NCBI GenBank assembly: GCA_031292215.1
Contig: JARLHO010000123.1
Location: 1 to 53,901, forward strand
DNA length: 53,901 bases
Direction: 5' to 3'
Source of the DNA: Syntrophobacteraceae bacterium
Lineage (GTDB): Bacteria; Desulfobacterota; Syntrophobacteria; Syntrophobacterales; Syntrophobacteraceae
Positions within the stretch are counted from its first letter, which is position 1, and every line of letters starts with the position of its first letter. The position numbers were made by a program, and so were the translations under genes. Positions 31,863 to 43,929 of the stretch are shown one piece after another. The notes below the pieces were generated by a model that searched no databases, was not told the DNA's origin, and saw only the letters and a program-made list of their open reading frames with translations.

Positions 31863-32738
31863 TCAGCTTTCCTTATCCTTATCCTTATCCTTGCCTTTTG
31901 GAAAAGCGATGAATGTGCAGAGCTTGCAGATATCAAAACCGGGGTAGGTCTCTCCCGTGCGCGGAAATGAGACGCCGCCGTCACGCACAGTCCTCTCGAG
32001 GGTCCAGTGGAACGTAGGCTCTATTTGGTCGTAAGGCCATATATAGTTTACCTCGGACTGTTCCGTCTTGCCCGCTGTCTTGCTGCTGCTGCACATCTGG
32101 GTCACGTTGGGTTTTTGGGTCACATAACACTGCACACAGCCGTGACAGATGGATGAGTTCATGGTCATGGTCATTTGGAACGGGTGCGAGTCGAAGGCCG
32201 CGCACCAGTCATTGGCAAGATGATAGGACTGGAGGGGGTCGCACATTCCATGGACTAGGTCCGGTTGAAAGGGCGCCTTGTGTAGTGGCGCCGTTGCAAA
32301 AGCGAGGAGTCCCGGAGGAAGACGCTTCTTGGTTTGGATGAACTTCTCGGCCTGCTCCCTGTTTTTGGTGTACTTTAGATGGCTTTTGATTTCCCCCTCG
32401 TCTAGATCCTTCCATCCAAATACGTACTTGGCGTTCGAACAGCCCAGTTTGTCCCGGGTCCCCAGCAGGATATCGCCCCGCTGCCTGGAAGCGGCTACAA
32501 AATGGCAGAAGGTGTAGGGCCTCAAACCAATTCTATAATCCACCCCGGCTTTAAAGGCTTCCAGCTCGTCTTCCTTGTAGAAAAACTTGATTGCCACCGG
32601 ATAGTATTTGAGTTTGAGAAGATTTCTCAACCCGAATACGATATCGGAGTGGCTCAGCCGTTCCCCGTTATTCTTTGCATTATCGAGCAACTCTTTGGCA
32701 AGTTGCACATCGTCCATGTAAACCTGTGTGTCGATCAT
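31863..32738 (-). CDS. DUF169-family protein
   Basis: 291 residues. It resembles DUF169 (COG2043) proteins: LLKLKYYPVAIKFF near the N-terminus, TFCHFVAASRQRGDILLGTR, LGCSNAKYVFGW, and a later SSICHGCVQCYV cysteine cluster, with CKLC near the C-terminus. The pattern suggests metal or cluster binding. DUF169 proteins are common in anaerobes but have no established reaction. ATG 32738 follows AGGAGCC. The 3' end carries a GATAAG hexanucleotide in three copies that gives a lysine/aspartate tail (KDKDKDK). The neighbour upstream is a CheY-like regulator on the same strand, 78 bases away. Confidence 0.75.
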   Translation of the reverse strand: MIDTQVYMDDVQLAKELLDNAKNNGERLSHSDIVFGLRNLLKLKYYPVAIKFFYKEDELEAFKAGVDYRIGLRPYTFCHFVAASRQRGDILLGTRDKLGCSNAKYVFGWKDLDEGEIKSHLKYTKNREQAEKFIQTKKRLPPGLLAFATAPLHKAPFQPDLVHGMCDPLQSYHLANDWCAAFDSHPFQMTMTMNSSICHGCVQCYVTQKPNVTQMCSSSKTAGKTEQSEVNYIWPYDQIEPTFHWTLERTVRDGGVSFPRTGETYPGFDICKLCTFIAFPKGKDKDKDKES

Positions 32739-32816
32739 AATTATTGGCTCCTCATTTATAGGTCGTCCCATATTCCCCTGCAGGAATCCCGCAAAGCGGT
32801 GAATCGCCCGGTACGC

Positions 32817-33191
32817 CTAACCTCCTGCCTGCGACTTCACCAGCGCCCGGCTCACCAGTTCTTCCAAATCGGCTATTTCAAGAGGCTTGGATAAATAATC
32901 TTCCACCCCAATCCGCATTGCTTCTTCGAATGTTTCCTCGGAAGGGCATCCCGTTATCATTATGACTTTGGTCGAAAAAGGCATCTGCTGGATGGACTTG
33001 AGAACTTTCAACCCATTTGTTTCACGGAGTTTGACATCTATTACGGCCAGGTCCGGTTTGAAGTGCAGGACCCACTCCAACGCCTCGTGGTGATCCGTAA
33101 ACGCATGGACTTCGTGCCCCATCCCACTGATAACGCGTTGCATGAGACGGCATGCGTCCAGTTCGTCGTCCAACACCACAACCAGTCCCAT
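32817..33191 (-). CDS. single-domain response regulator (CheY-like)
   Basis: 124 residues, a receiver domain only. Acidic pair D8/D9, phospho-acceptor D52 (LAVIDVKLRETNG), T/S at ITG, and the K of SKPLE are all present, so phosphorylation should work. With no output domain it acts by protein contact or as a phosphate relay. The start follows AAGGAAGGC. Its kinase is not adjacent; the soluble PAS kinase at 24404 is one candidate. It precedes the DUF169 gene on the same strand. Confidence 0.9.
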   Translation of the reverse strand: MGLVVVLDDELDACRLMQRVISGMGHEVHAFTDHHEALEWVLHFKPDLAVIDVKLRETNGLKVLKSIQQMPFSTKVIMITGCPSEETFEEAMRIGVEDYLSKPLEIADLEELVSRALVKSQAGG

Positions 33192-33801
33192 TTGCCTTCC
33201 TTTGCTTACAAAACGAATCCTGGCAGAATAGTAGCATTATGTGTGCCAATGGAACATGGGGGAGCGATGCCTCGATCCCCCGCTCCTGCCAATCGGCTGC
33301 GGCGCTCCGGCAAGGGGGGCGACCGAGAAACCGCGAAAAGAATTGATGCAGGTTCACTGGACCGAAAAGTGGCAGCCATCGAAGAAGATTTGTGCAATAG
33401 ATCGATTGCAGCGCAATAATACTTTGTCACACGGAAGGGGCGGCGCGCGAGAAGAGAGAGGGAAGGGTTCCGTAATGGCGATGTTTGTTGAAAAGTGGGC
33501 TATCTTCAAGGTAATTTCGCATTGCAGAAGTAACCGGGACACGCTGAAAGCCCGAACCCTGTGCCGGTTGCGGAAATGATAAAAGGCGATCCTGGGAAGT
33601 TCGAGGCGGCCTTGAGAACTTCGTATGTTCCCGACTGAAAAAGGAGTATTTCCACATCGAAAACGAGCTTTTAAGGTGCAAGTAAGCCTCGATTTCGGCA
33701 TAATAACTTTGAAAACGGAGCGCCCTGTAAGGTTCGACTCCTATGGACCAATGGACATGAATTATTCTACCTACGCATAAACTCATTGCGGAGACAGCTA
33801 A
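33192..33801. other. gene-free stretch before the defence module
   Basis: About 610 bases with no supportable gene; its open frames lack ribosome binding sites and resemble nothing. It contains the divergent promoter region of the CheY-like gene and of the HamA-like gene. GGTTCGACTCC at 33730 looks like a tRNA T-loop but has no matching arms. Confidence 0.45.
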
Positions 33802-34585
33802 TTGCTGACTTACAACGCCACATTTTCAAAGATTGACGGTCAAGTGATTTGGCGCGGCAAAAGCGTTGAGGAGCAGGGAGAATTCAGTGCATTCCTCGCC
33901 GGACCGACTCGCAGCCGTTTGTTCGATGAACAACAATATACACGGTATGAAGCCGACCTGCGCGCGTTGGCCACTACGGAAATGGCCTCCAATACGATCA
34001 CACGGCTTTTGGCATCCCAACCTGACAAGGCGCCCTGGGAAGTCGGCGAGGCCCTCGCAGAATGCTTTCTTGAGGAAGAGCGCGGTGTAAAATTTCCATG
34101 GAATACCGAACGGGATAAGCGAACGCCAAAGGCCAGCCTGCCGGGTGCTGACCTGGTTGGTTTCATTGAAGAGGGCGATGAAGCCGTATTGGTTTTGGGG
34201 GAAGTGAAGACATCCAGCGATGCGAATAGCCCTCCCCTGGTGATGTACGGCAAGAGTGGATTGATCCACCAGTTGGACAACCTTGCCGCTGATAATCTCG
34301 ATTCACAATTGTTTGCTGAAATGGTTGCATCCGAGATGTAAGAATACTAATCTCTGGCCCCTATACGAGAAAGCAGTAAAAAAATATCTTTCCTCCGATG
34401 GTCGGGCGATTAAGCTTGTCGGCATGCTAATGCGGGATACCGAACCCAATGAGCTCGACCTGAAAAATCGCGCCAAACGGCTGGCCACTTCGGTATCGGC
34501 CCCTACGGAAGTGGAGCTGGACGCCTGGTATCTTCCTCTCCCCGTTGATGATTGGCCAACGGTTGTTCAAGGGGGTGCAGTATGA
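33802..34585 (+). pseudogene. HamA-like (DUF1837) nuclease subunit, frameshifted
   Basis: Two frames together encode one protein of about 260 residues. The first (33802-34341) holds a PD-(D/E)XK-type core: D117 in GADLVGF and E134-x-K136 in GEVKTSSDANSPPLVMYGKS, the arrangement of DUF1837/HamA nucleases. It runs out at DNLDSQLFAEMVASEM. The second frame continues with LLKWLHPRCKNTNLWPLYEK and ends at TGA 34583-34585. Removing one T from the run 34312-34314 joins them as SQLLLKWLHPRC, and the whole length then becomes a multiple of three. The start is TTG 33802 after GCGGAG. The stop overlaps the helicase start. It may be a true mutation, a sequencing error or frameshifting. Naming as HamA is by motif and context. 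Confidence 0.6.
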
Positions 34586-37500
34586 CTTCCTGGATACTGG
34601 ACAGCCTTAATCCGGACCTGTTGCAGTGGGCTCGCACCGAGGCGTCACGACGTTTGCTCGATACCGCATTGGGATTGGTCGGAAAGCGAGAAGACGACAG
34701 CAATCTACTTTTTGCTGCGGAGTCGCTGGAATTAGCCGTCATCGATCTGCTGGACAACGACAAAGAGGTCGATTCCCTACGAGAGATAAGCGCAGAAGCT
34801 TTCCAGCTTTTGCGGGTCCTGCCGCCACCGAAAGCTCCTCTTGAAGCGGCAAAAAGCTATTTACGGCTTGCCTGCCTGGGAGTAATCGGGGAGCGTGGAG
34901 TCGATGCCCGCCGTGTGTTGAGAGAAACGCCATGGCCCGCTCTGCCGATGGATTCCACCTCATGGGGAGAGCGTACATCGGCGACAATACTTGATCTCTG
35001 GTTGCGAGTCATCCGCAAGGATGGCTGGTCCGACCTCGATGCCGTCCAAACTCAGATTGTTGCACTTCGACAGCAACAGGCGAACTATGAAGCCGAATAT
35101 CTGGATGCCCAGCATTCAATGGCGCGTACAGCCGCGTGGGAGTTGGTTGCTCTTTATCATCTATCCAAGGCGGCCGAGCTGCTGGCCATTTTCACCACGC
35201 AGGGGGAGATTGACGGACGCTTTGATGCCCGGCAACAATTGGAAGCCCAGTTTGACCGGGCTCTGACAGCCTGCGGACGTGCCGAGCTTGTTGAGCTTGA
35301 CGCCATGGTGCGGCTACTTGCCCGCACGGCACAGCAGTTGGTGGACAACTGCATCTGGACCGTTACTCGTGCTGTAAACTCTCGGGTTACACGATTTGTT
35401 CATCATCTGGTCTCCAGGGAGAGCGGCAATCCAATCTTCGAGATGCTTCCACCGCAGCGGCGAACGTTGCGAGAGGCCGGTTTGCTCGGCTCCGGCCATC
35501 GAGCGGTCGTGGTCAATTTGCCGACCTCCAGCGGTAAGACCTTCATTGCCGAATTCCGTATTTTGCAGGCCCTTAACCAGTTCGACCACGAAAAGGGATG
35601 GGTCGCGTATCTCGCCCCAACCCGCGCCTTGGTTAGCCAGATCGCAACTCGGCTGCGACGCGATTTCGCCCCGATTGATATCAATGTCGAAAAAGTCAGC
35701 CCGGCCCTTGAGGTTGACGGTTTGGAAGCAACCTTGCTTACCGACAGGCAGGATACTACCCAGTTCCGTGTGCTAGTTACCACCCCGGAAAAGCTCGATC
35801 TGATGCTGAGAGGAGGATGGGAAGAATCAATCGGGCGACCTCTTACGCTGGTCGTGGTGGACGAGGCGCATAACCTCGCTCAAAAAGGGCGTGGCATAAA
35901 GTTGGAATTGCTATTGGCAACGATTAATCGGGAGTGTCGCTATGCCCAATTCCTTCTGTTGACGCCATTTATTCCCAATGCTGCGGAGATTGCCCGTTGG
36001 CTCGCCCCGGATAGCTATAGTGACTTTGAGCTAGGCGTGGATTGGCGACCCAATGACAGGGCAATTGTGCTGAGTCAGCCGCGGCAGGGTGCCAAGAAAG
36101 GGGACTTTTCGCTAGAGCTGGAAACTGTCCATACCTCCAAACAGACGTTATGCATTCCTGAAAACATACCCCTAGCAGCCGTAAGGCCTCTGGGCGTGTC
36201 CTGGTCGCAGGCAAAGGGGAATACCGGAAAGTTGGCTGCAGCCACGGCTCAGGTCATGAAAGAACGTGGTCCTGTCATTGTTCTTGCCCGAACGATCCCA
36301 GACACGTGGAGCCTTGCTGCTAACTTCAAACATTCGGCAAACAGGCCTGTGGCAATACATGCCGATGTGCGGTTAGTGCAGCGTTATCTGGAGCGGGAGT
36401 TTGGCGAAGGTTTTGCCCTTTGTGAACTTCTGGAATACGGGGTGGGGGTGCACCACTCCGGATTATCCGATGAGGCCAAGGCTCTCATGGAATGGCTGTT
36501 TGAAAGTGAGTTAATAAGTGTGCTGGTGTCGACGACTACCATTGCCCAAGGGGTTAATTTCCCGGTTTCCGGGGTAGTTATGGCCGCACATCAGTATCCA
36601 GGTCCTCCTCCGGTTGACATCCCGCCCGAAGATTTCTGGCATTTGGCAGGCCGAGCCGGACGGGTTGAGCATGGTAGCGTCGGTATCGTAGCGCTTGCGG
36701 CAACAGACGAGCAGAAGGCCACCAAATTACGCAACTTTGTGGGACACCAAGTCACGGCGTTAAATTCAACGCTGATTGCAATGGTCCAGGCGATCATTGC
36801 CTCAGGTGCTCCACTTGAGTTACATCGGCTATTTTATTTGCCGGAATGGTCAGCCTTCCTTCAGTACTTGGCGCATACATATCGCCAGATAGGCGATCCG
36901 CAACGCTTTGCCAATGAAGTGGAGCAGGTGCTGCGAGGTACGTTGGGGTTCCAGAACCTGCGACGAACACGGAGCGACTGGGCAAATCGATTGGTGGCAA
37001 GCGTGCAGGCCTACGGCGAGAGGATTTCTGGAAAGCCAGGGCTTAAGCTTGTAGACAACACAGGGTTTTCTTGGGAAACCGTCAGCATCACCTTAAAGCG
37101 TTTATCAGACGAGCGGATCACCGATGATGTCTGGGATGCGCAACGACTTTTCGGCAGGGACGGCGGGAATCTGCAAAAGCTGATGGGAATTATGCTGGAA
37201 GTACCAGAGCTTAAGGAAAATCTAGCGGCAGCCACCGGTGGTCGTGGTTCGGATGGAAATCGTTTGGCGTCCATGGTTAGAGACTGGGTCAATGGTGCAA
37301 GTCTGCCTGATATGGCCCGAGCATATTTTGCGATAAAACCCGATGGCGGGGCGGTTGAACCGACCAAGGCTTTGACGGATTGCTGTAAGAACGTGTTTGG
37401 CAAACTTACCCAGACAGCTTCATGGGGGCTGGCCGCCCTCCAGACCATGACCTTTGGCGACAGTTTCCAACAATTGACGGAGGCTGAGCAGAAGACCTTG

Positions 37501-37746
37501 CGAAATTTGCCCGCCCGCGTTTTCTACGGCGTAAATACCGACGAAGCAATTGCCCTTCGACTGCTTGGGGTTCCGCGAGGAGCGGCGCAACCGCTGGCTC
37601 AAAGCTTGACAACACCAAGGGACCTATTATTGCCACAATTGCGAACTCAGTTGGCACAGACAGATGTACGGATATGGACCCAAGCGCTGGGAGAGAGCGG
37701 GCAGGATTATTTTAGGATCTGGAAGGTGCTGGAGGGGATTGGGTAA
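34582..37746 (+). CDS. HamB-like Ski2-type DExH helicase (Hachiman-like defence)
   Basis: 1054 residues. A 300-residue helical N-terminal part leads to a superfamily 2 helicase. Motif I NLPTSSGKTFIAEF has K319, LAPTRALVSQIA is motif Ia, and VVVDEAHNL gives DEAH at 427-430. HHSGLSDEAK and TTTIAQGVNFPVSG are Ski2-like blocks, and the arginine-finger motif GRAGR is at 690-694. All motifs look intact. A 350-residue helical C-terminus follows. ATG 34582 overlaps the stop of the nuclease gene (ATGA), so the two are coupled. In Hachiman systems HamB loads on DNA and activates the HamA nuclease during phage infection. That function is inferred here. No plain housekeeping helicase has this partner. 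Confidence 0.7.
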   Translation: MTSWILDSLNPDLLQWARTEASRRLLDTALGLVGKREDDSNLLFAAESLELAVIDLLDNDKEVDSLREISAEAFQLLRVLPPPKAPLEAAKSYLRLACLGVIGERGVDARRVLRETPWPALPMDSTSWGERTSATILDLWLRVIRKDGWSDLDAVQTQIVALRQQQANYEAEYLDAQHSMARTAAWELVALYHLSKAAELLAIFTTQGEIDGRFDARQQLEAQFDRALTACGRAELVELDAMVRLLARTAQQLVDNCIWTVTRAVNSRVTRFVHHLVSRESGNPIFEMLPPQRRTLREAGLLGSGHRAVVVNLPTSSGKTFIAEFRILQALNQFDHEKGWVAYLAPTRALVSQIATRLRRDFAPIDINVEKVSPALEVDGLEATLLTDRQDTTQFRVLVTTPEKLDLMLRGGWEESIGRPLTLVVVDEAHNLAQKGRGIKLELLLATINRECRYAQFLLLTPFIPNAAEIARWLAPDSYSDFELGVDWRPNDRAIVLSQPRQGAKKGDFSLELETVHTSKQTLCIPENIPLAAVRPLGVSWSQAKGNTGKLAAATAQVMKERGPVIVLARTIPDTWSLAANFKHSANRPVAIHADVRLVQRYLEREFGEGFALCELLEYGVGVHHSGLSDEAKALMEWLFESELISVLVSTTTIAQGVNFPVSGVVMAAHQYPGPPPVDIPPEDFWHLAGRAGRVEHGSVGIVALAATDEQKATKLRNFVGHQVTALNSTLIAMVQAIIASGAPLELHRLFYLPEWSAFLQYLAHTYRQIGDPQRFANEVEQVLRGTLGFQNLRRTRSDWANRLVASVQAYGERISGKPGLKLVDNTGFSWETVSITLKRLSDERITDDVWDAQRLFGRDGGNLQKLMGIMLEVPELKENLAAATGGRGSDGNRLASMVRDWVNGASLPDMARAYFAIKPDGGAVEPTKALTDCCKNVFGKLTQTASWGLAALQTMTFGDSFQQLTEAEQKTLRNLPARVFYGVNTDEAIALRLLGVPRGAAQPLAQSLTTPRDLLLPQLRTQLAQTDVRIWTQALGESGQDYFRIWKVLEGIG

Positions 37747-38259: not shown

Positions 38260-39699
38260 TCAAGAGTCCTCATCATTTTCTCGATACTTTTCCGCCTGGA
38301 CGCCGTAGCGGCGCATGACCTGCTGGAGCCCCTGACGCTCCAGTCCGCAAAGACGCGCCGCGCGAGTCACATTGCCCCCGGTTGCCGACAGCGCCTTCTC
38401 CAGATAGTGTACATGAAACTTTCTAAGAACTTCGTCTTTTGCCTCCCGATATTCCAGGAGTCGTTCGGTTTCTTCGACAAGGCAGGACCTTTCGGAGAGT
38501 TTTTCCAAAAGCCCCACGTGCTCCACATCGATCTGGTCTCCTGGCGCCAGAAGAACTCCGCGCATGATGATGTTTTGGAGCTCACGCACGTTGCCCTCCC
38601 ACGGCCATCGCAGGAAAAGCTCCATGAGCCTTGTGGAAACCTCCTTGGGGGGCCGTTTGAACTCGCGGCAGTGCTTTTCGAGGAAATGATGGACAAGTAG
38701 GAGGATGTCTTCGCGCCTTTCCCTGAGCGGGGGCAGCTCGATAGGCAAAACGTTCAGGCGGTAGAAAAGATCCTCTCGAAATTCCCCTCGTTTGATCTTC
38801 TCCGCGAGATTCCTGTTGGTGGAGGCAACCAGGCGAACGTCTATATGAATGGATTTGGTGTCCCCGAGCGGCTTGATCTCTTTTGATTGCAGGACCCGCA
38901 GTAACTTTGTCTGGATGGTCGTGCTGATGTCTCCGATTTCGTCTAAAAAAAGGGTCCCGCGGTGAGCCTCCTGGAAAAGCCCTGTCCTGTTTTGAACGGC
39001 GTGTGTGAAGGCCCCCTTTCTATAGCCGAAAAGCTCGGATTCCAGAATATTTTCCGGAACCGCCGGGCAGTTTACCACCACGAACGGTTCGTTTTGCCGC
39101 TCGCTCAAATCATGGATGGCCCGCCCCAAAAGATCCTTGCCCGTCCCCGACTCCCCGGTGATAAGAACCGTCACATCCGTTTTGGCCACCATTTGCACGG
39201 CCTCAAAGACCCGTTGCATTTTCGCGCTCTTTCCCACCAGGTTCCGGAAAGCCTGCGTTTGCTGTACGCGCCGCTGGAGCACCGTATTTTCCCGCAGCAG
39301 CCGGCTTCTTTCCATGGCCTTGGTGAGGTGCCAGACCAGGGCTTCGTGGTCGAAGGGCTTGGTGATAAAATCGTAGGCGCCCATCTTAATGGCCTGCACC
39401 GCGAGATCGATCGTGCCATGAGCCGTCATCATGACCACTGTCAGCCAGGGGTGATCGCGCCGAGTGCGCTCCAGGACCTCCAAACCGTCCATGCCCGGCA
39501 TCTTTACGTCGAGCAGCATGAGGCCGACGGGGTCTTTGGCCAAAACGGCCAACGCCGCTTCCCCGGAGTTGGCCGTTTTGACTTCGCAGCCAAGCTCGGG
39601 CGCAAGGGCCCGTTGTAGAAGCCGCCCCATGTCCTCTTCATCGTCTACGATCAAAAGGATGTCGACCGCTCGCTGCGGTTTTGCGTTTTCAGTGGCCAC
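38260..39699 (-). CDS. NtrC-family sigma-54 response regulator
   Basis: 479 residues. The receiver domain (1-125) has D19/D20, phospho-acceptor D64 in LLDVKMPGMDGL and the K of TKPFD. The AAA+ activator domain (about 150-385) has Walker A GESGTGKDLLGRAIH and Walker B LFLDEIGDI. A Fis-type helix-turn-helix closes the protein (about 435-472, ATGGNVTRAARLCGLERQGL). The sigma-54 contact loop reads GAFTHA instead of the usual GAFTGA. It overlaps the kinase gene by 11 bases. A sigma-54 promoter with upstream inverted repeats lies beyond the start of this operon, before the TSUP genes, making those the probable targets. Confidence 0.92.
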   Translation of the reverse strand: MATENAKPQRAVDILLIVDDEEDMGRLLQRALAPELGCEVKTANSGEAALAVLAKDPVGLMLLDVKMPGMDGLEVLERTRRDHPWLTVVMMTAHGTIDLAVQAIKMGAYDFITKPFDHEALVWHLTKAMERSRLLRENTVLQRRVQQTQAFRNLVGKSAKMQRVFEAVQMVAKTDVTVLITGESGTGKDLLGRAIHDLSERQNEPFVVVNCPAVPENILESELFGYRKGAFTHAVQNRTGLFQEAHRGTLFLDEIGDISTTIQTKLLRVLQSKEIKPLGDTKSIHIDVRLVASTNRNLAEKIKRGEFREDLFYRLNVLPIELPPLRERREDILLLVHHFLEKHCREFKRPPKEVSTRLMELFLRWPWEGNVRELQNIIMRGVLLAPGDQIDVEHVGLLEKLSERSCLVEETERLLEYREAKDEVLRKFHVHYLEKALSATGGNVTRAARLCGLERQGLQQVMRRYGVQAEKYRENDEDS

Positions 39700-41236
39700 T
39701 CTGCGACCTTTTCCCGGCGCCGGGCTCTGCTGTCTGGTTAACGGTTTGCAGAACCGGAAGTATGATGGTGAAAATGGACCCCTTTCCCACTTCGCTTTCG
39801 ACGAGCAACTCGCCCCCGTGGTCCTTTACGATGCCGTAGCTCACCGAAAGGCCAAGGCCGGTCCCTTCCCCCGTGGGCTTGGTGGTAAAAAACGGATCGA
39901 AAATGCGGGTCATGTGGCGGGCCTCTATTCCCATCCCCTCATCTATTACCCGCACTATCGCTTTTCGCCCCGTTTCCTCGTAGCGGGTTTCGATCCGCAC
40001 CGTCCCCGATTTCATCGCCTGCCGGGCATTCATAATAAGATTCATGAAGACTTGCTTCATCTTCGCCTCATCTATGGCCATGGCAGGAATCCGGGGGTCG
40101 AATTCCTCTATGATGACGATTTTTTCCAATTGAAACTGATGGCGCACAACGCTTAGCACCTCCTCTATCACATCGTTAATGCGGCAGGCGGCCTTTTTTG
40201 TCTGGGCTCTTCTCGAAAAGCTAAGAAGATTTTCAACGATGGTCTTGCACGACCGCGTGTGTTTTTCAATAATCCGCAGATCTTCGAAGTTCTGGGAGTT
40301 CTCGTTTTCAGAGCGAATCAGCAGTTGCGTGTAGCCAAGGATAATGCCCAGGGGGTTATTGATTTCATGGGCGATTCCAGCGGCCAGTTGGCCAACGGAT
40401 GCCAGCTTGTCGGCCTGAAGGATCTGCTGCTCCATCGCCTTTCTATACGAGATGTCTTTTACGAGGAAATGATAAATCTCACCGTTGCCCCGGGACCGGT
40501 CCTCGACGCTGCCGCTGATGAGTCCGCTAAAAAGGGTGTTATCGGCCCGTTTCATCGAGACCTCGGTATCGACGACATAGCCCTGCCCTTGAAGTGTCCG
40601 CTGTAAGGAACTCCAATCGCCAACCGTTTCGAAATAGTCTTGTAACAGGCGACTGCCCGAGGACATATCACCCCCGCAGAGGCCAACCATCTCCATGCCC
40701 GAAGGATTCAGGGTCAAAAGCGTCCCATCGTCTTGCACAACCGCTATCATGTCGCGGGAAACCTCGAATATACGCCGGTATTTGCGCTCGGATAAGGCAA
40801 GCTCCCGGGTGCGCTCCTCTACGAGGTCCTCCAGATTGTGATTCATGAAAAGGAGCTGCTCGTGGGCTGTCTGGATGGCCAGCTTATCCTCAAGAATCTG
40901 TTGATAGACCTTCCACACCCGGCCGAAAAACAGGGTTACCGAGGCCACGAACACGAAGGTGAGCGTGTTGAAAGCCCCGCTAAACGGGCGCACAAGAACC
41001 CATAGGCTGTCGTAGTGAAAAACGAGCAGTATCCGCTTTATAATGTGGTCCACCGAGCGCGAAATGGCGAAGGCCGCCAGCATGTAGCACACAGCCAGCA
41101 GGTAGAGCCACACAACGTTTGTGCGGTCCCGATCCCTTAGCTTTCCGGCGAGCCGCACGCACAGGAAGGAAAACAGGATCATGAGCGCGGAGCCCACAAG
41201 ATCGCAGATCCATATAGGATAGACAGGCAGGCTCAT
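39689..41236 (-). CDS. membrane PAS-domain sensor histidine kinase
   Basis: 515 residues. Three hydrophobic segments (about 10-30, 42-60, 85-105) anchor the protein and form a small membrane sensor domain. A coiled coil (108-150), a PAS domain (150-268), HisKA with H290 in LAAGIAHEINNPLGIILGYT, and an ATPase domain follow. The ATPase domain has NLIMNARQAM, DEGMGIEARHM and TGEGTGLGLSVSYGIVKDHG. The NtrB/ZraS-like catalytic part fits its partner, the NtrC-type regulator that overlaps it. There is no large periplasmic domain, so the signal is probably in the membrane or cytoplasm, or comes from the adjacent small membrane protein. Confidence 0.92.
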   Translation of the reverse strand: MSLPVYPIWICDLVGSALMILFSFLCVRLAGKLRDRDRTNVVWLYLLAVCYMLAAFAISRSVDHIIKRILLVFHYDSLWVLVRPFSGAFNTLTFVFVASVTLFFGRVWKVYQQILEDKLAIQTAHEQLLFMNHNLEDLVEERTRELALSERKYRRIFEVSRDMIAVVQDDGTLLTLNPSGMEMVGLCGGDMSSGSRLLQDYFETVGDWSSLQRTLQGQGYVVDTEVSMKRADNTLFSGLISGSVEDRSRGNGEIYHFLVKDISYRKAMEQQILQADKLASVGQLAAGIAHEINNPLGIILGYTQLLIRSENENSQNFEDLRIIEKHTRSCKTIVENLLSFSRRAQTKKAACRINDVIEEVLSVVRHQFQLEKIVIIEEFDPRIPAMAIDEAKMKQVFMNLIMNARQAMKSGTVRIETRYEETGRKAIVRVIDEGMGIEARHMTRIFDPFFTTKPTGEGTGLGLSVSYGIVKDHGGELLVESEVGKGSIFTIILPVLQTVNQTAEPGAGKRSQSGH

Positions 41237-41245
41237 GACCGCTGG

Positions 41246-41701
41246 TTACACCTGTTTGAGGAGTCGACGCAGACCCATGTATAAAAAGATAATCCCCGGC
41301 ACGCAGAACAAGTGATCGAATTTGGTGAAATAGTAAAGCGCCACCAGCTTGCCCGATCCGCTCCCGAAATGGACCCTGGCACTCCATGAACCTTCGTCTG
41401 CCAGCACAAAAGAGCTTCCGTGTCCATCCAGGTAATGTCCCAGAACAGCATCGATATTCCACAGAATCAGGCAAAAAGCGCCATATTGGACATAACGCCA
41501 TCCGGGCGCCTTTATCAAGCCGCTGTCTCTTAGCCAATAGATCAACGCGCCCATGGAAAACAGGAAAAGAATGTGGGCCATCTGGTGAACGTAGAGTCCC
41601 TCCGGACCACCATGAGACTGAATGGCCATCGCCGCCTGCGGGGACAAGAGCAAATATCCCAGGATCGCTGCGGGAACGGCTAACGTTAACGTCCTATCCA
41701 T
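41246..41701 (-). CDS. small membrane protein, first gene of the two-component operon
   Basis: 151 residues; family not recognised. A signal peptide-like start (MDRTLTLAVPAAILGYLLLS, ending QAAMA) is followed by three hydrophobic segments (about 40-58, 70-85 and 125-145). Several histidines lie near the membrane surface (YVHQMAHIL, GHYLDGHGS, FDHLF), which could bind a metal or haem. ATG 41701 with TGAGGC upstream is preferred to longer starts at 41713 or 41764. The kinase gene begins nine bases after its stop, so they share a transcript. A role as accessory sensor of the kinase is a reasonable inference but unproven. Confidence 0.75.
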   Translation of the reverse strand: MDRTLTLAVPAAILGYLLLSPQAAMAIQSHGGPEGLYVHQMAHILFLFSMGALIYWLRDSGLIKAPGWRYVQYGAFCLILWNIDAVLGHYLDGHGSSFVLADEGSWSARVHFGSGSGKLVALYYFTKFDHLFCVPGIIFLYMGLRRLLKQV

Positions 41702-41787
41702 CGATTGCCTCATAAACGGCGCCGCTCGCTTTGCAAAGTGCACCGCCCGCGCGCCATGAAACACCGCAAAACATGTGCACTAAATCT

Positions 41788-41880
41788 GTTGCACTGCAAC
41801 GAAAACGATCCTTTGGCCGACATGCCGATAATGTGGCTAAATAACAGATACTCTCCACGCAGTGCAAGTTTTCCTTGCAC
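41788..41880. promoter_or_regulatory. candidate activator binding sites (TGCAA inverted repeats)
   Basis: GTTGCACTGCAAC (41788-41800, six-base arms around one C) and GTGCAAG-N5-CTTGCAC (41862-41868/41874-41880) share TGCAA half sites. They lie about 170-260 bases upstream of the expected start from the sigma-54 promoter at 42026, the usual distance for NtrC-type enhancers. The divergent regulatory operon starts at 41701, so they could also control that. Confidence 0.5.
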
Positions 41881-42025
41881 CATTCGTTTAGTTGCATTCC
41901 CGGTCGGGACCTCCCGGTGGTTTTGCGGTCCCGGGGCCGATTTCCCCGGCGCTGCGCCCCAATCCCTGTGTAGGGGCCGCGCGGAGCCCGCTACCATGGG
42001 GCGGGAAAGACGGGCCCTGGCAATA

Positions 42026-42041
42026 TGGCATGGTGATTGCT
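42026..42041 (+). promoter_or_regulatory. sigma-54 promoter of the TSUP genes
   Basis: TGGCATGGTGATTGCT matches the -24/-12 pattern TGGCAy-N5-TTGCw with the correct GG to GC spacing. It points at the TSUP gene starting at 42227, leaving a leader of about 175 bases. A sigma-54 activator gene is divergently encoded nearby. Confidence 0.65.
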
Positions 42042-42226
42042 CTCCACCCATGCAACCAGGATGCTAATTATAAGTTGACCGTCCGGTAAAGGAAACGACA
42101 GATCGCGGACTTAAGGCTTCATGGTGGGTGTATCCCCTGGTGAGCATGTGATGACCGCTTTTTCCGCCTGTGCCCGAGCGCACGGGTATGAGCGCTTAGT
42201 AACCAACTTTTTATCGGGAGGACTTT

Positions 42227-43507
42227 ATGAATAGAAAAATTGCTCTGTTTGGAGCCGCTTTGGGCATCGGCGCCTCGATGCTCTTTTCGGCCATCGCGTT
42301 TGCCGAGCCGAGTGCTGCGCCTTCCCCGGCAGCTCTTCCCGGCGCCGCTGCGGCCACGGCCGCACCTGCTGCGGGACAGGTGCAGATAAGCCTGGACAAG
42401 ACTTCTCTACAAAACTACGGCGAAGTGACGGTGAGCGGCAAAGCGATGGCCGGGGCCCCGGTTTTTGTCGAGGTCTGGAGCGGCCGAACGGTCCACGCGG
42501 ACCTATTTGACACCAAAAAGGACAAAAAGACAGGAATAGCCCCCTACATTCTCTACCAGACCGAGCAGATGCCGGCCTACTACAAGGTCTTGGTTCCGGC
42601 GGACAAAAAAGCCGTGCTGGAAACGGCCAAAGCCGAGGGCAAGAAGTGGAAGTTTTCGGAAACGCTCAAAAAATGCGGAGCCCTCGAAGCTTTCAACGCG
42701 CCCGGCACGATCCCTATCCAGAGGTATCGTGTAAGCCTTCTTGGCAGCGTTATCGGCTCGCGCGGAACCGAGCTTGCCGCGATGGACGCCAAAGAAAATA
42801 TCAACCGGGCGATGAAACTTGCTAAAACAAGGTTTAGAAACCCTGGCGCCCTCCTCGCTCCGGTCGTTATGACCAGGCCCGACGGCTCCTTTACCGCCAA
42901 GATCTCCGTCCCCTCTGGCGCCCCCGATGGGACGTTCCACGTACGGGCCTTTTCCGGCCAGGGGGGCTTTAGCCGGACGCTCTCTTTTGAAAACCATGTC
43001 GGTTTCCCCTATGTGTACCTCAGCAACGCCGGAACCAGCATGAATCTTCTGTGGCCCTTCCTTCTCTCTTTCGCCGTTTGCACCTTCGGGGTCTTGATGG
43101 GCGCGGGAGGCGGGTTTATCCTCAATCCGCTGCTCGTTTTGATCTGGCCTCTTCCGGCCGCTGTAGTCGCGGGCACCGTCATGCCGACCGTTCTTTTCTC
43201 CCAGGCAAGCGGGATCTTTAACTATTCGAAAATTAAATTCATAAGCTGGAAGCTCGGCATTGCGATCGGCCTGGCAATGCTTCTGGGCGGCTTCATCGGT
43301 CCGGAGTTAACCGAGCTCATCACCCTTTCGCAGTTTAAATTCATCTTCGGAATAATACTGATTTTCCTCGCTTGCCTCATGGCGTGGCAGACCACCCCCG
43401 GCTACGTGGCCAAAAACAAGAAAGAGAAAGCGATTCTGGATCAGTTCCAGAAGAAGGCCAAGGAGGCCGCGGCCAAAAAAGCCCAAGCCAAACCCGTGGC
43501 CGTTTGA
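42227..43507 (+). CDS. TSUP (TauE/SafE) half-permease with periplasmic domain
   Basis: 426 residues. A signal peptide (1-26) and an Ala/Pro-rich linker lead to an extracytoplasmic beta-rich domain (about 50-265, starting VQISLDKTSLQNYGEVTVSG). Four transmembrane helices follow (about 272-395), with the TSUP signature GVLMGAGGGFILNPLLVL near 286-303. A basic, Lys/Ala-rich tail (about 398-426) is cytoplasmic. TSUP permeases export or import small sulfonates, sulfite or carboxylates; the substrate is unknown. It carries only the first of the two TSUP repeats, and the second is in the next gene, 38 bases on. The start follows GGGAGGAC. It lies downstream of a sigma-54 promoter. Confidence 0.85.
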   Translation: MNRKIALFGAALGIGASMLFSAIAFAEPSAAPSPAALPGAAAATAAPAAGQVQISLDKTSLQNYGEVTVSGKAMAGAPVFVEVWSGRTVHADLFDTKKDKKTGIAPYILYQTEQMPAYYKVLVPADKKAVLETAKAEGKKWKFSETLKKCGALEAFNAPGTIPIQRYRVSLLGSVIGSRGTELAAMDAKENINRAMKLAKTRFRNPGALLAPVVMTRPDGSFTAKISVPSGAPDGTFHVRAFSGQGGFSRTLSFENHVGFPYVYLSNAGTSMNLLWPFLLSFAVCTFGVLMGAGGGFILNPLLVLIWPLPAAVVAGTVMPTVLFSQASGIFNYSKIKFISWKLGIAIGLAMLLGGFIGPELTELITLSQFKFIFGIILIFLACLMAWQTTPGYVAKNKKEKAILDQFQKKAKEAAAKKAQAKPVAV

Positions 43508-43545: not shown

Positions 43546-43929
43546 ATGGAAGTTTCATTTTGGGGTGAGTCCTTCAAGGTCAATTTGGTTATTGGATGTG
43601 TCGGCGGATTTTTGATCGCTGTCCTGGGATCGATGTTCGGGTTTGGAGGCGGTCCTTTCATGGTGCCGCTCTTAACCGTTGGGCTGGGGCTTCCGATGTA
43701 CCTGGTCGTGGGCAGTTCGCTGCTCGCCATCTTCTTTAATACGGTTATGGGGACCCTGCGCCACTTTCAGTTGGGACACCTGGACCTTTTGCTCTTCTGC
43801 GCAATGTTTCCGGGAGCGATTCTGGCCGGTTTTGTGGGACCCAAAATCGCCAAGAAGCTGAGCCCTCTCATGGTTAAGAGGGTGGCGGTAGTCGGCCTTT
43901 TGATCCTGGGTTTGCGTCTGCTTTTCTAA
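43546..43929 (+). CDS. TSUP (TauE/SafE) second half-permease
   Basis: 127 residues with three to four hydrophobic helices. It carries the TSUP repeat signature GSMFGFGGGPFMVPLLTVGL near 28-47 and ends at the membrane (GLLILGLRLLF). It supplies the second half of a permease whose first half is encoded just upstream, so the two should form one transporter as a heterodimer. ATG 43546 follows AAGGAGATCG. There is no stop or frameshift inside a single ancestral frame: a proper ribosome binding site and the charged tail of the first protein show that the split is genuine. Confidence 0.85.
   Translation: MEVSFWGESFKVNLVIGCVGGFLIAVLGSMFGFGGGPFMVPLLTVGLGLPMYLVVGSSLLAIFFNTVMGTLRHFQLGHLDLLLFCAMFPGAILAGFVGPKIAKKLSPLMVKRVAVVGLLILGLRLLF

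Follow-up and report, generated by a model that had tools for sequence, protein, structure and literature searches.

The window analysed here is a stretch of 53,901 bp from a Syntrophobacteraceae bacterium (contig C59; the draft genome totals 4.89 Mb), in which the region 41701–42226 separates two divergently transcribed groups of genes (Table 1). To its left are genes for a small membrane protein (MEM), a membrane sensor histidine kinase (HK) and a response regulator (RR), and to its right are two transporter genes, TauN and TauC. A first-pass annotation had described a sigma-54 activator and a kinase divergent from the transporter; both are so arranged, although the MEM gene lies between the kinase gene and the promoter. 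RR has the architecture of NtrC-type regulators, with receiver, sigma-54 AAA+ and Fis-type helix-turn-helix domains recognized by Pfam, and its translation contains the loop GAFTHA and the recognition helix ERQGLQQ. GAFTHA is listed in the text of PMC4641369 as a loop variant compatible with activation. MEM has a QxH...EG...HQxxH-like signature and a DHL motif that are conserved in most related loci, together with conserved histidines, and it may be a subunit that senses heme, a metal or redox state. A candidate defence island separates RR from the REC promoter and falls outside the circuit described below; its PDC-M23A match reaches residue 169 of a 263-residue profile, and an ORF in another frame (34283–34585) overlaps the end of the match.

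Table 1. Positions of the genes and predicted control elements in the window.
Feature	Coordinates	Strand	Remarks
DUF169 protein behind REC	31863–32771	-	PF02596, E 5e-52
REC, single receiver-domain protein	32817–33191	-	In relatives heads REC-PhsA-PhsB
Sigma-54-like element TGGCACACATAATGCT for REC	33233–33248	-	15.5/17.5
Second candidate activator site, before REC	33393–33429		17/20
Candidate defence island PDC-M23A/B	33802–37746	+	PADLOC
RR, NtrC-type response regulator	38260–39699	-	PF00072 receiver, PF00158 AAA+, PF02954 Fis-type HTH
HK, membrane sensor histidine kinase	39689–41236	-	PAS + HisKA + HATPase_c
MEM, small membrane protein	41246–41713	-	No Pfam match; start codon from alignment of relatives
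Candidate upstream activator site	41776–41812		16/20 to TGCAA-N8-TTGCA-N-TGCAA-N8-TTGCA; fourth half-site lost
Second TGCAA inverted repeat, TGCAA-N7-TTGCA	41863–41879		~174–190 before predicted start; possible accessory site
Sigma-54 -24/-12 element, TauN-TauC operon	42026–42041	+	17.5/17.5; kept in G024 and G022, decayed in G023
TauN, N-terminal half of TauE/SafE (TSUP) transporter	42227–43507	+	PF01925 positions 2–114 of 237
TauC, C-terminal half, same TauE/SafE family	43546–43929	+	PF01925 positions 127–237

A transporter does lie downstream of the promoter, as the first-pass annotation had it, but it is split over two genes, which was not mentioned. The two products resemble TauE/SafE (TSUP) exporters in that both halves of PF01925 are found, on the two adjacent genes, and they differ from these exporters in the split itself and in an extra beta-rich N-terminal domain of ~220 residues in TauN, which lacks a significant PDB match and is probably periplasmic. 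The predicted fold of TauN is confident for this N-domain and poor for the membrane part (mean pLDDT 70), and comparison of the model with the PDB gave no match at E ≤ 0.001. Two separate half-transporter matches are also seen in nearly all related loci. TSUP proteins are numerous in sulfate reducers, and the text of PMC5840216 states that prediction of their function is not feasible; on balance, we lean towards TauNC moving a sulfur oxyanion.

Two TGCAA inverted repeats had been reported upstream of the transporter promoter. Both are in the places given, although they are not equivalent and the binding unit appears to be larger. The first (TTGCACTGCAA; 41789–41799, ~254–264 before the predicted start) forms the centre of the conserved tandem site, and this core is kept in all four of the same-genus genomes aligned, whereas relatives retain the second one in part, with an N8 version in G024, a degraded one in G022 and none in G023. 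Alignment of 15 candidate sites places TTGCANTGCAA in the middle of a longer unit: a further TGCAA half-site is found 8 bp ahead of it, and several of the sites also have a TTGCA half-site at the same distance on the other side. These flanking half-sites indicate a pair of 18-bp inverted repeats at a spacing of 19 bp, which would fit two dimers side by side. Within the window there is a single TTGCA-N0-12-TGCAA and there are two copies of TGCAA-N0-12-TTGCA, the second of these at 33393.

The tandem form was scanned for in 73 loci (888,629 positions), from which five loci (L038, L040, L045, L051 and L053) had been left out, since nearly all of them, if not all, are on contigs equal in length to family contigs already included. 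There are 16 matches of at least 16/20, all of which fall in regions that control TauN, REC, PhsA/PhsB or fused TSUP genes, a count that includes one at a contig end (L097 position 80) with its target off the contig. Most of the 16 sites had served to define the motif; those in L057 and L059 had not. As a control we used all orderings of the five half-site letters; the other orderings have a median of one match of at least 15 (maximum seven), and the best 11 of them have no more than two matches of at least 16. For the window alone, the expected number of matches scoring 16 or more is ~0.05, and two are observed. The specificity is only in the tandem form: TTGCRNYGCAA by itself was rejected as a motif because it is too loose, with 28 places in the window's own genome against 10 for the control, and the relatives are similar. 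It is scarcely plausible that the TGCAA repeats are parts of an RNA hairpin or a terminator rather than protein sites; TGCAA-N7-TTGCA at 41863 does sit within a 7-bp inverted repeat able to form a hairpin, but the feature that is conserved is a tandem array of half-sites, in phase at 19-bp intervals, which lies upstream of the promoter and has targets on both sides. Separately, we observed 29 matches of TTGCRNYGCAAC in G016, mostly TTGCATCGCAAC, against five for the control; these are probably an unrelated repeated element of that genome.

The first-pass annotation had suggested looking for the same half-sites at other promoters, and this was productive, as the copy at 33393, unnoticed earlier, appears to be a second regulon site in the window, lying ahead of the REC gene. 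The DUF169 gene behind REC is a probable operon partner of it in the window; the ORF that follows a site in G002 resembles a DUF169 gene by eye only. G024 has RR, the site, REC, PhsA and PhsB in this order, with the first three of these within ~2.2 kb. No PhsA copy was found in the window genome at E ≤ 1e-100. The PDB chain closest to the G024 PhsA-like protein is the chain of 2vpw named thiosulfate reductase (E 4e-117), an entry which we take to be the Thermus polysulfide reductase. The module resembles the PhsAB/PsrAB reductases both in this PhsA-like protein and in the linked PhsB-like protein with 4Fe-4S domains, although the PhsA-like proteins score 520.5 and 587 bits against a cut-off of 694 bits for the NCBIfam PhsA equivalog (NF012032). 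The match to the PhsA profile begins at residue 37 or 41 and leaves the leader region unmatched.

Linkage of TauN-TauC to PhsA/PhsB-like genes recurs in many loci, labelled as Desulfobacterota groups, Nitrospirota and Rhodocyclaceae, and several of the relatives have informative arrangements. One example is that of G025 (putatively Syntrophobacter fumaroxidans) and G006, where the RR genes are distant and the site separates TauN from the divergently oriented REC-PhsAB and has a sigma-54 element to each side; G001 and G007 have the same arrangement with a fused TSUP gene instead of TauN. A second example is provided by G002 and G003, in which RR is present and TauN absent; the genes downstream of their sites are a fused TSUP gene, a REC gene and REC-PhsB. 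Searching 26 relatives with the pattern, a test that could have failed, returned 23 rows at 22 distinct places (with L223 judged from its pattern-match position), and none for the reversed control pattern. Fifteen of the 22 places adjoin regulon genes, and three of the places, two in G002 and one in G003, are independent of the motif definition; the seven that are elsewhere (one each in G005, G022 and G024, and two each in G018 and G000) count against the model. Each of the ten family genomes in which the pattern matched regulon sites has an RR ortholog, at 67–86% identity outside the window genome. TauN is present in G004, G005 and G008, with no RR ortholog at E ≤ 1e-150 and no site of at least 15 in the loci read. 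G011, G012 and G013 have RR and no pattern match, which also counts against the model; in G011 there is a 15/20 site between TauN and PhsA. We note a further 15/20 tandem match in the window's own genome (L237; G000:C152:36618) with a 14.5 sigma-54-like element nearby, a possible extra target.

The -24/-12 element claimed at 42026 is present (TGGCATGGTGATTGCT) with the correct GG/GC spacing, and it agrees with the consensus TGGCAY-N5-TTGCW with GG and GC 12 bp apart. Scored with a simple sigma-54 consensus, itself and its weights being general knowledge, it is the top match on both strands of the 53.9 kb, with the runner-up at 15.5, and TGGCATGGTGATTGCT occurs as a single copy in the draft genome. 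The start predicted from it is at ~42052, one base away from the 42053 proposed earlier. The element is kept in three of four aligned same-genus control regions (two of three relatives), in a region that is otherwise poorly conserved, and its distance to the ATG is equal in G024 and G022. The TauN leader contains, at ~42074–42201, an extra stretch relative to these two genomes that is single-copy in the genome; a leader RNA element was considered and rejected, Rfam having no match and folding being no better than that of shuffled sequences (z 0.71).

Of 21 site-gene pairs, several of which have approximate target start codons, 18 contain an intervening sigma-54 match of at least 15.5, compared with 1.3% of ~3,000 random segments of equal lengths, some draws having been skipped where the locus was too short. 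The three weaker promoters are those of TauN in G023 (14.5) and of REC in G001 and G007 (15.0 each), and the first of these counts against the model, as G023 has a strong 18/20 site at TauN but only this poor match. It is very unlikely that the match at 42026 arose by chance and that TauN is made from a different promoter. The missing good element in G023 would fit such an explanation, as would a window leader ~130 nt longer than in the two sister genomes, but chance would have to account for a perfect score, the highest in the window, for an element that G024 and G022 keep at equal distances from the ATG, and for the recurrence of sigma-54 elements at the regulon promoters. The sigma-54 promoter remains our preferred reading. 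The distance from site to element is 77–429 bp across the pairs and 213 bp in the window, which is long relative to D. vulgaris, for which the text of PMC4641369 gives the largest fraction of such distances as within 100 bp, yet is within the range of the pairs here.

The inverted repeat is conserved and co-occurs with RR, and its presence follows the RR recognition helix. In a table of 28 genomes, compiled by hand, a site was found in 13 of 13 with the helix ERQx[LF]QQ and in two of 15 others (p 2.8e-6, with relatedness ignored), the others including four without a readable helix (G005, G028, G031 and G032). Of 47 related loci, 18 entered the comparison that feeds this table, and G042 and G043 were dropped as presumed to be G004 and G008. 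The two exceptions with a site of at least 15 are G028, where RR is cut by the contig end, and G039, which has the helix ERQALQR and a 15/20 site before MEM and shows that the rule is not absolute. No site of at least 15 is near TauN with helix classes QR, QH, QY and QK. In L068 and L075 there are looser TGCAT- or CGCAG-type arrays, identified by eye, which suggest that the site code drifted along with the helix.

These relationships bear on the alternative that another factor binds the tandem repeat, either a different sigma-54 activator or a repressor acting on the divergent promoter of MEM-HK-RR, and that RR controls something else. Many sigma-54 activators are encoded (37–61 candidates were scored per genome), the site is 63 bp before the MEM start codon and could act on both genes, and binding of RR to the repeat is deduced from sequence. 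However, the site tracks the RR ortholog even where the RR gene is distant (G025, G006, G002 and G003), it tracks the recognition helix, and the unlinked MEM in five genomes has no preceding site of at least 15. We regard binding by another factor as unlikely, and it is highly likely that RR is the protein that binds the tandem site.

The first-pass annotation had also described a closed regulatory circuit with all of its parts in one place. A scan of MEM promoters does not support closure: upstream of MEM-HK-RR in the five genomes where the operon is elsewhere there is neither a sigma-54 element of at least 14.5 nor a tandem site of at least 15, and on the MEM side of the four same-genus genomes there is one weak sigma-54 match only (14.5, in the window). 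The pairing of a site with a suitable promoter before the regulator operon, which autoregulation would require in several genomes, was not found. G039 is an exception in having a site ahead of its MEM gene, and autoregulation may exist there. We also considered and rejected a sigma-70-type promoter that would drive MEM from the overlapping region, as three of four genomes have no match of at least 9/12, with one in G023. Nor are all of the parts in one place, as the second target, REC, is 5 kb past the regulator genes, and the regulators of G025 and G006 are unlinked to the transporter.

The central proposal that a sigma-54 promoter links regulator and transporter is supported by the comparison, including the upstream site and the divergent activator as its likely binder. 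RR very probably switches on the two-part sulfur-anion transporter through this promoter, and we consider it likely that a sigma-54 regulon has its control region at 41701–42226 and that RR acts in it on TauN-TauC, REC and the targets in relatives. Phosphorylated oligomers of NtrC family proteins at upstream sites loop to sigma-54 polymerase and open the promoter through ATP hydrolysis. By this scheme, the MEM-HK membrane pair would sense a signal and phosphorylate RR, which would bind at 41776–41812 as tandem dimers, one on each TGCAA-N8-TTGCA unit, and loop to the sigma-54 polymerase at 42026, where its AAA+ ATPase would open the promoter for production of TauN-TauC. At 33393–33429 RR would likewise act on REC, and its targets in relatives would be REC-PhsA-PhsB or a fused TauE-type gene; the likely purpose would be joint induction of a sulfur-oxyanion transporter and an enzyme of the thiosulfate/polysulfide-reductase family. 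The chances that the signal is a sulfur compound or the redox state are about even. A broader and more tentative suggestion is that MEM-HK-RR could be a dedicated sensor of sulfur intermediates (sulfite, thiosulfate or polysulfide) that switches a TSUP/REC/Phs-Psr module across the Desulfobacterota, with MEM as the sensing subunit and REC as a second layer, acting as a phosphate sink or HK modulator.

Two-component sigma-54 regulons are well known in the sulfate-reducer group (PMC4641369, PMC3333781), and those of D. vulgaris of the NtrC type (PMC4641369; Rajeev 2011, PMC3333781) share with the one proposed here a response regulator, a sigma-54 element and an upstream inverted repeat. According to the text of Kazakov 2015 (PMC4641369), most of the mapped sites are inverted repeats of 4–6 bp with spacers of 3–8 bp, and the sigma-54 regulons are small and often beside the activator gene. 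The regulon described here would be of this conventional kind. Neither the tandem TGCAA-N8-TTGCA nor the targets TauNC and REC-PhsAB were found in the text of PMC4641369 and PMC3333781, motif figures and supplements aside, and a literature search outside subscription papers and supplements found neither the motif nor the target set described. Among published systems, DVU2956 may come closest; Kazakov 2015 (PMC4641369) gives its regulon as DVU2957–DVU2964, with a role in transmembrane transport. DVU2956 is likewise a divergent sigma-54 activator, its operon includes a TSUP gene (DVU2958, judged by gene numbers; PMC5840216), and its mapped site has three half-sites (PMC4641369), a likeness in the number of half-sites; unlike RR, as far as these texts describe it, DVU2956 lacks a receiver domain and is an activator of the single-component type.

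The regulon supplies both a DNA code that can be tested and a regulator for the transporter-enzyme module, and the sulfur compound that induces it would tell what the TauNC/Phs-type module handles. Such a test is practical because Syntrophobacter fumaroxidans is a described strain that carries the module. Lastly, we note that in L041, L043, L046, L047, L049, L056 and L084 a split transporter and PhsAB are near a different NtrC-type regulator, ~40% identical, and that TGGTATGGTTATTGCT is a good sigma-54 element in L043 and L046. The different regulator and the good elements suggest that sigma-54 control of the module may have arisen more than once.
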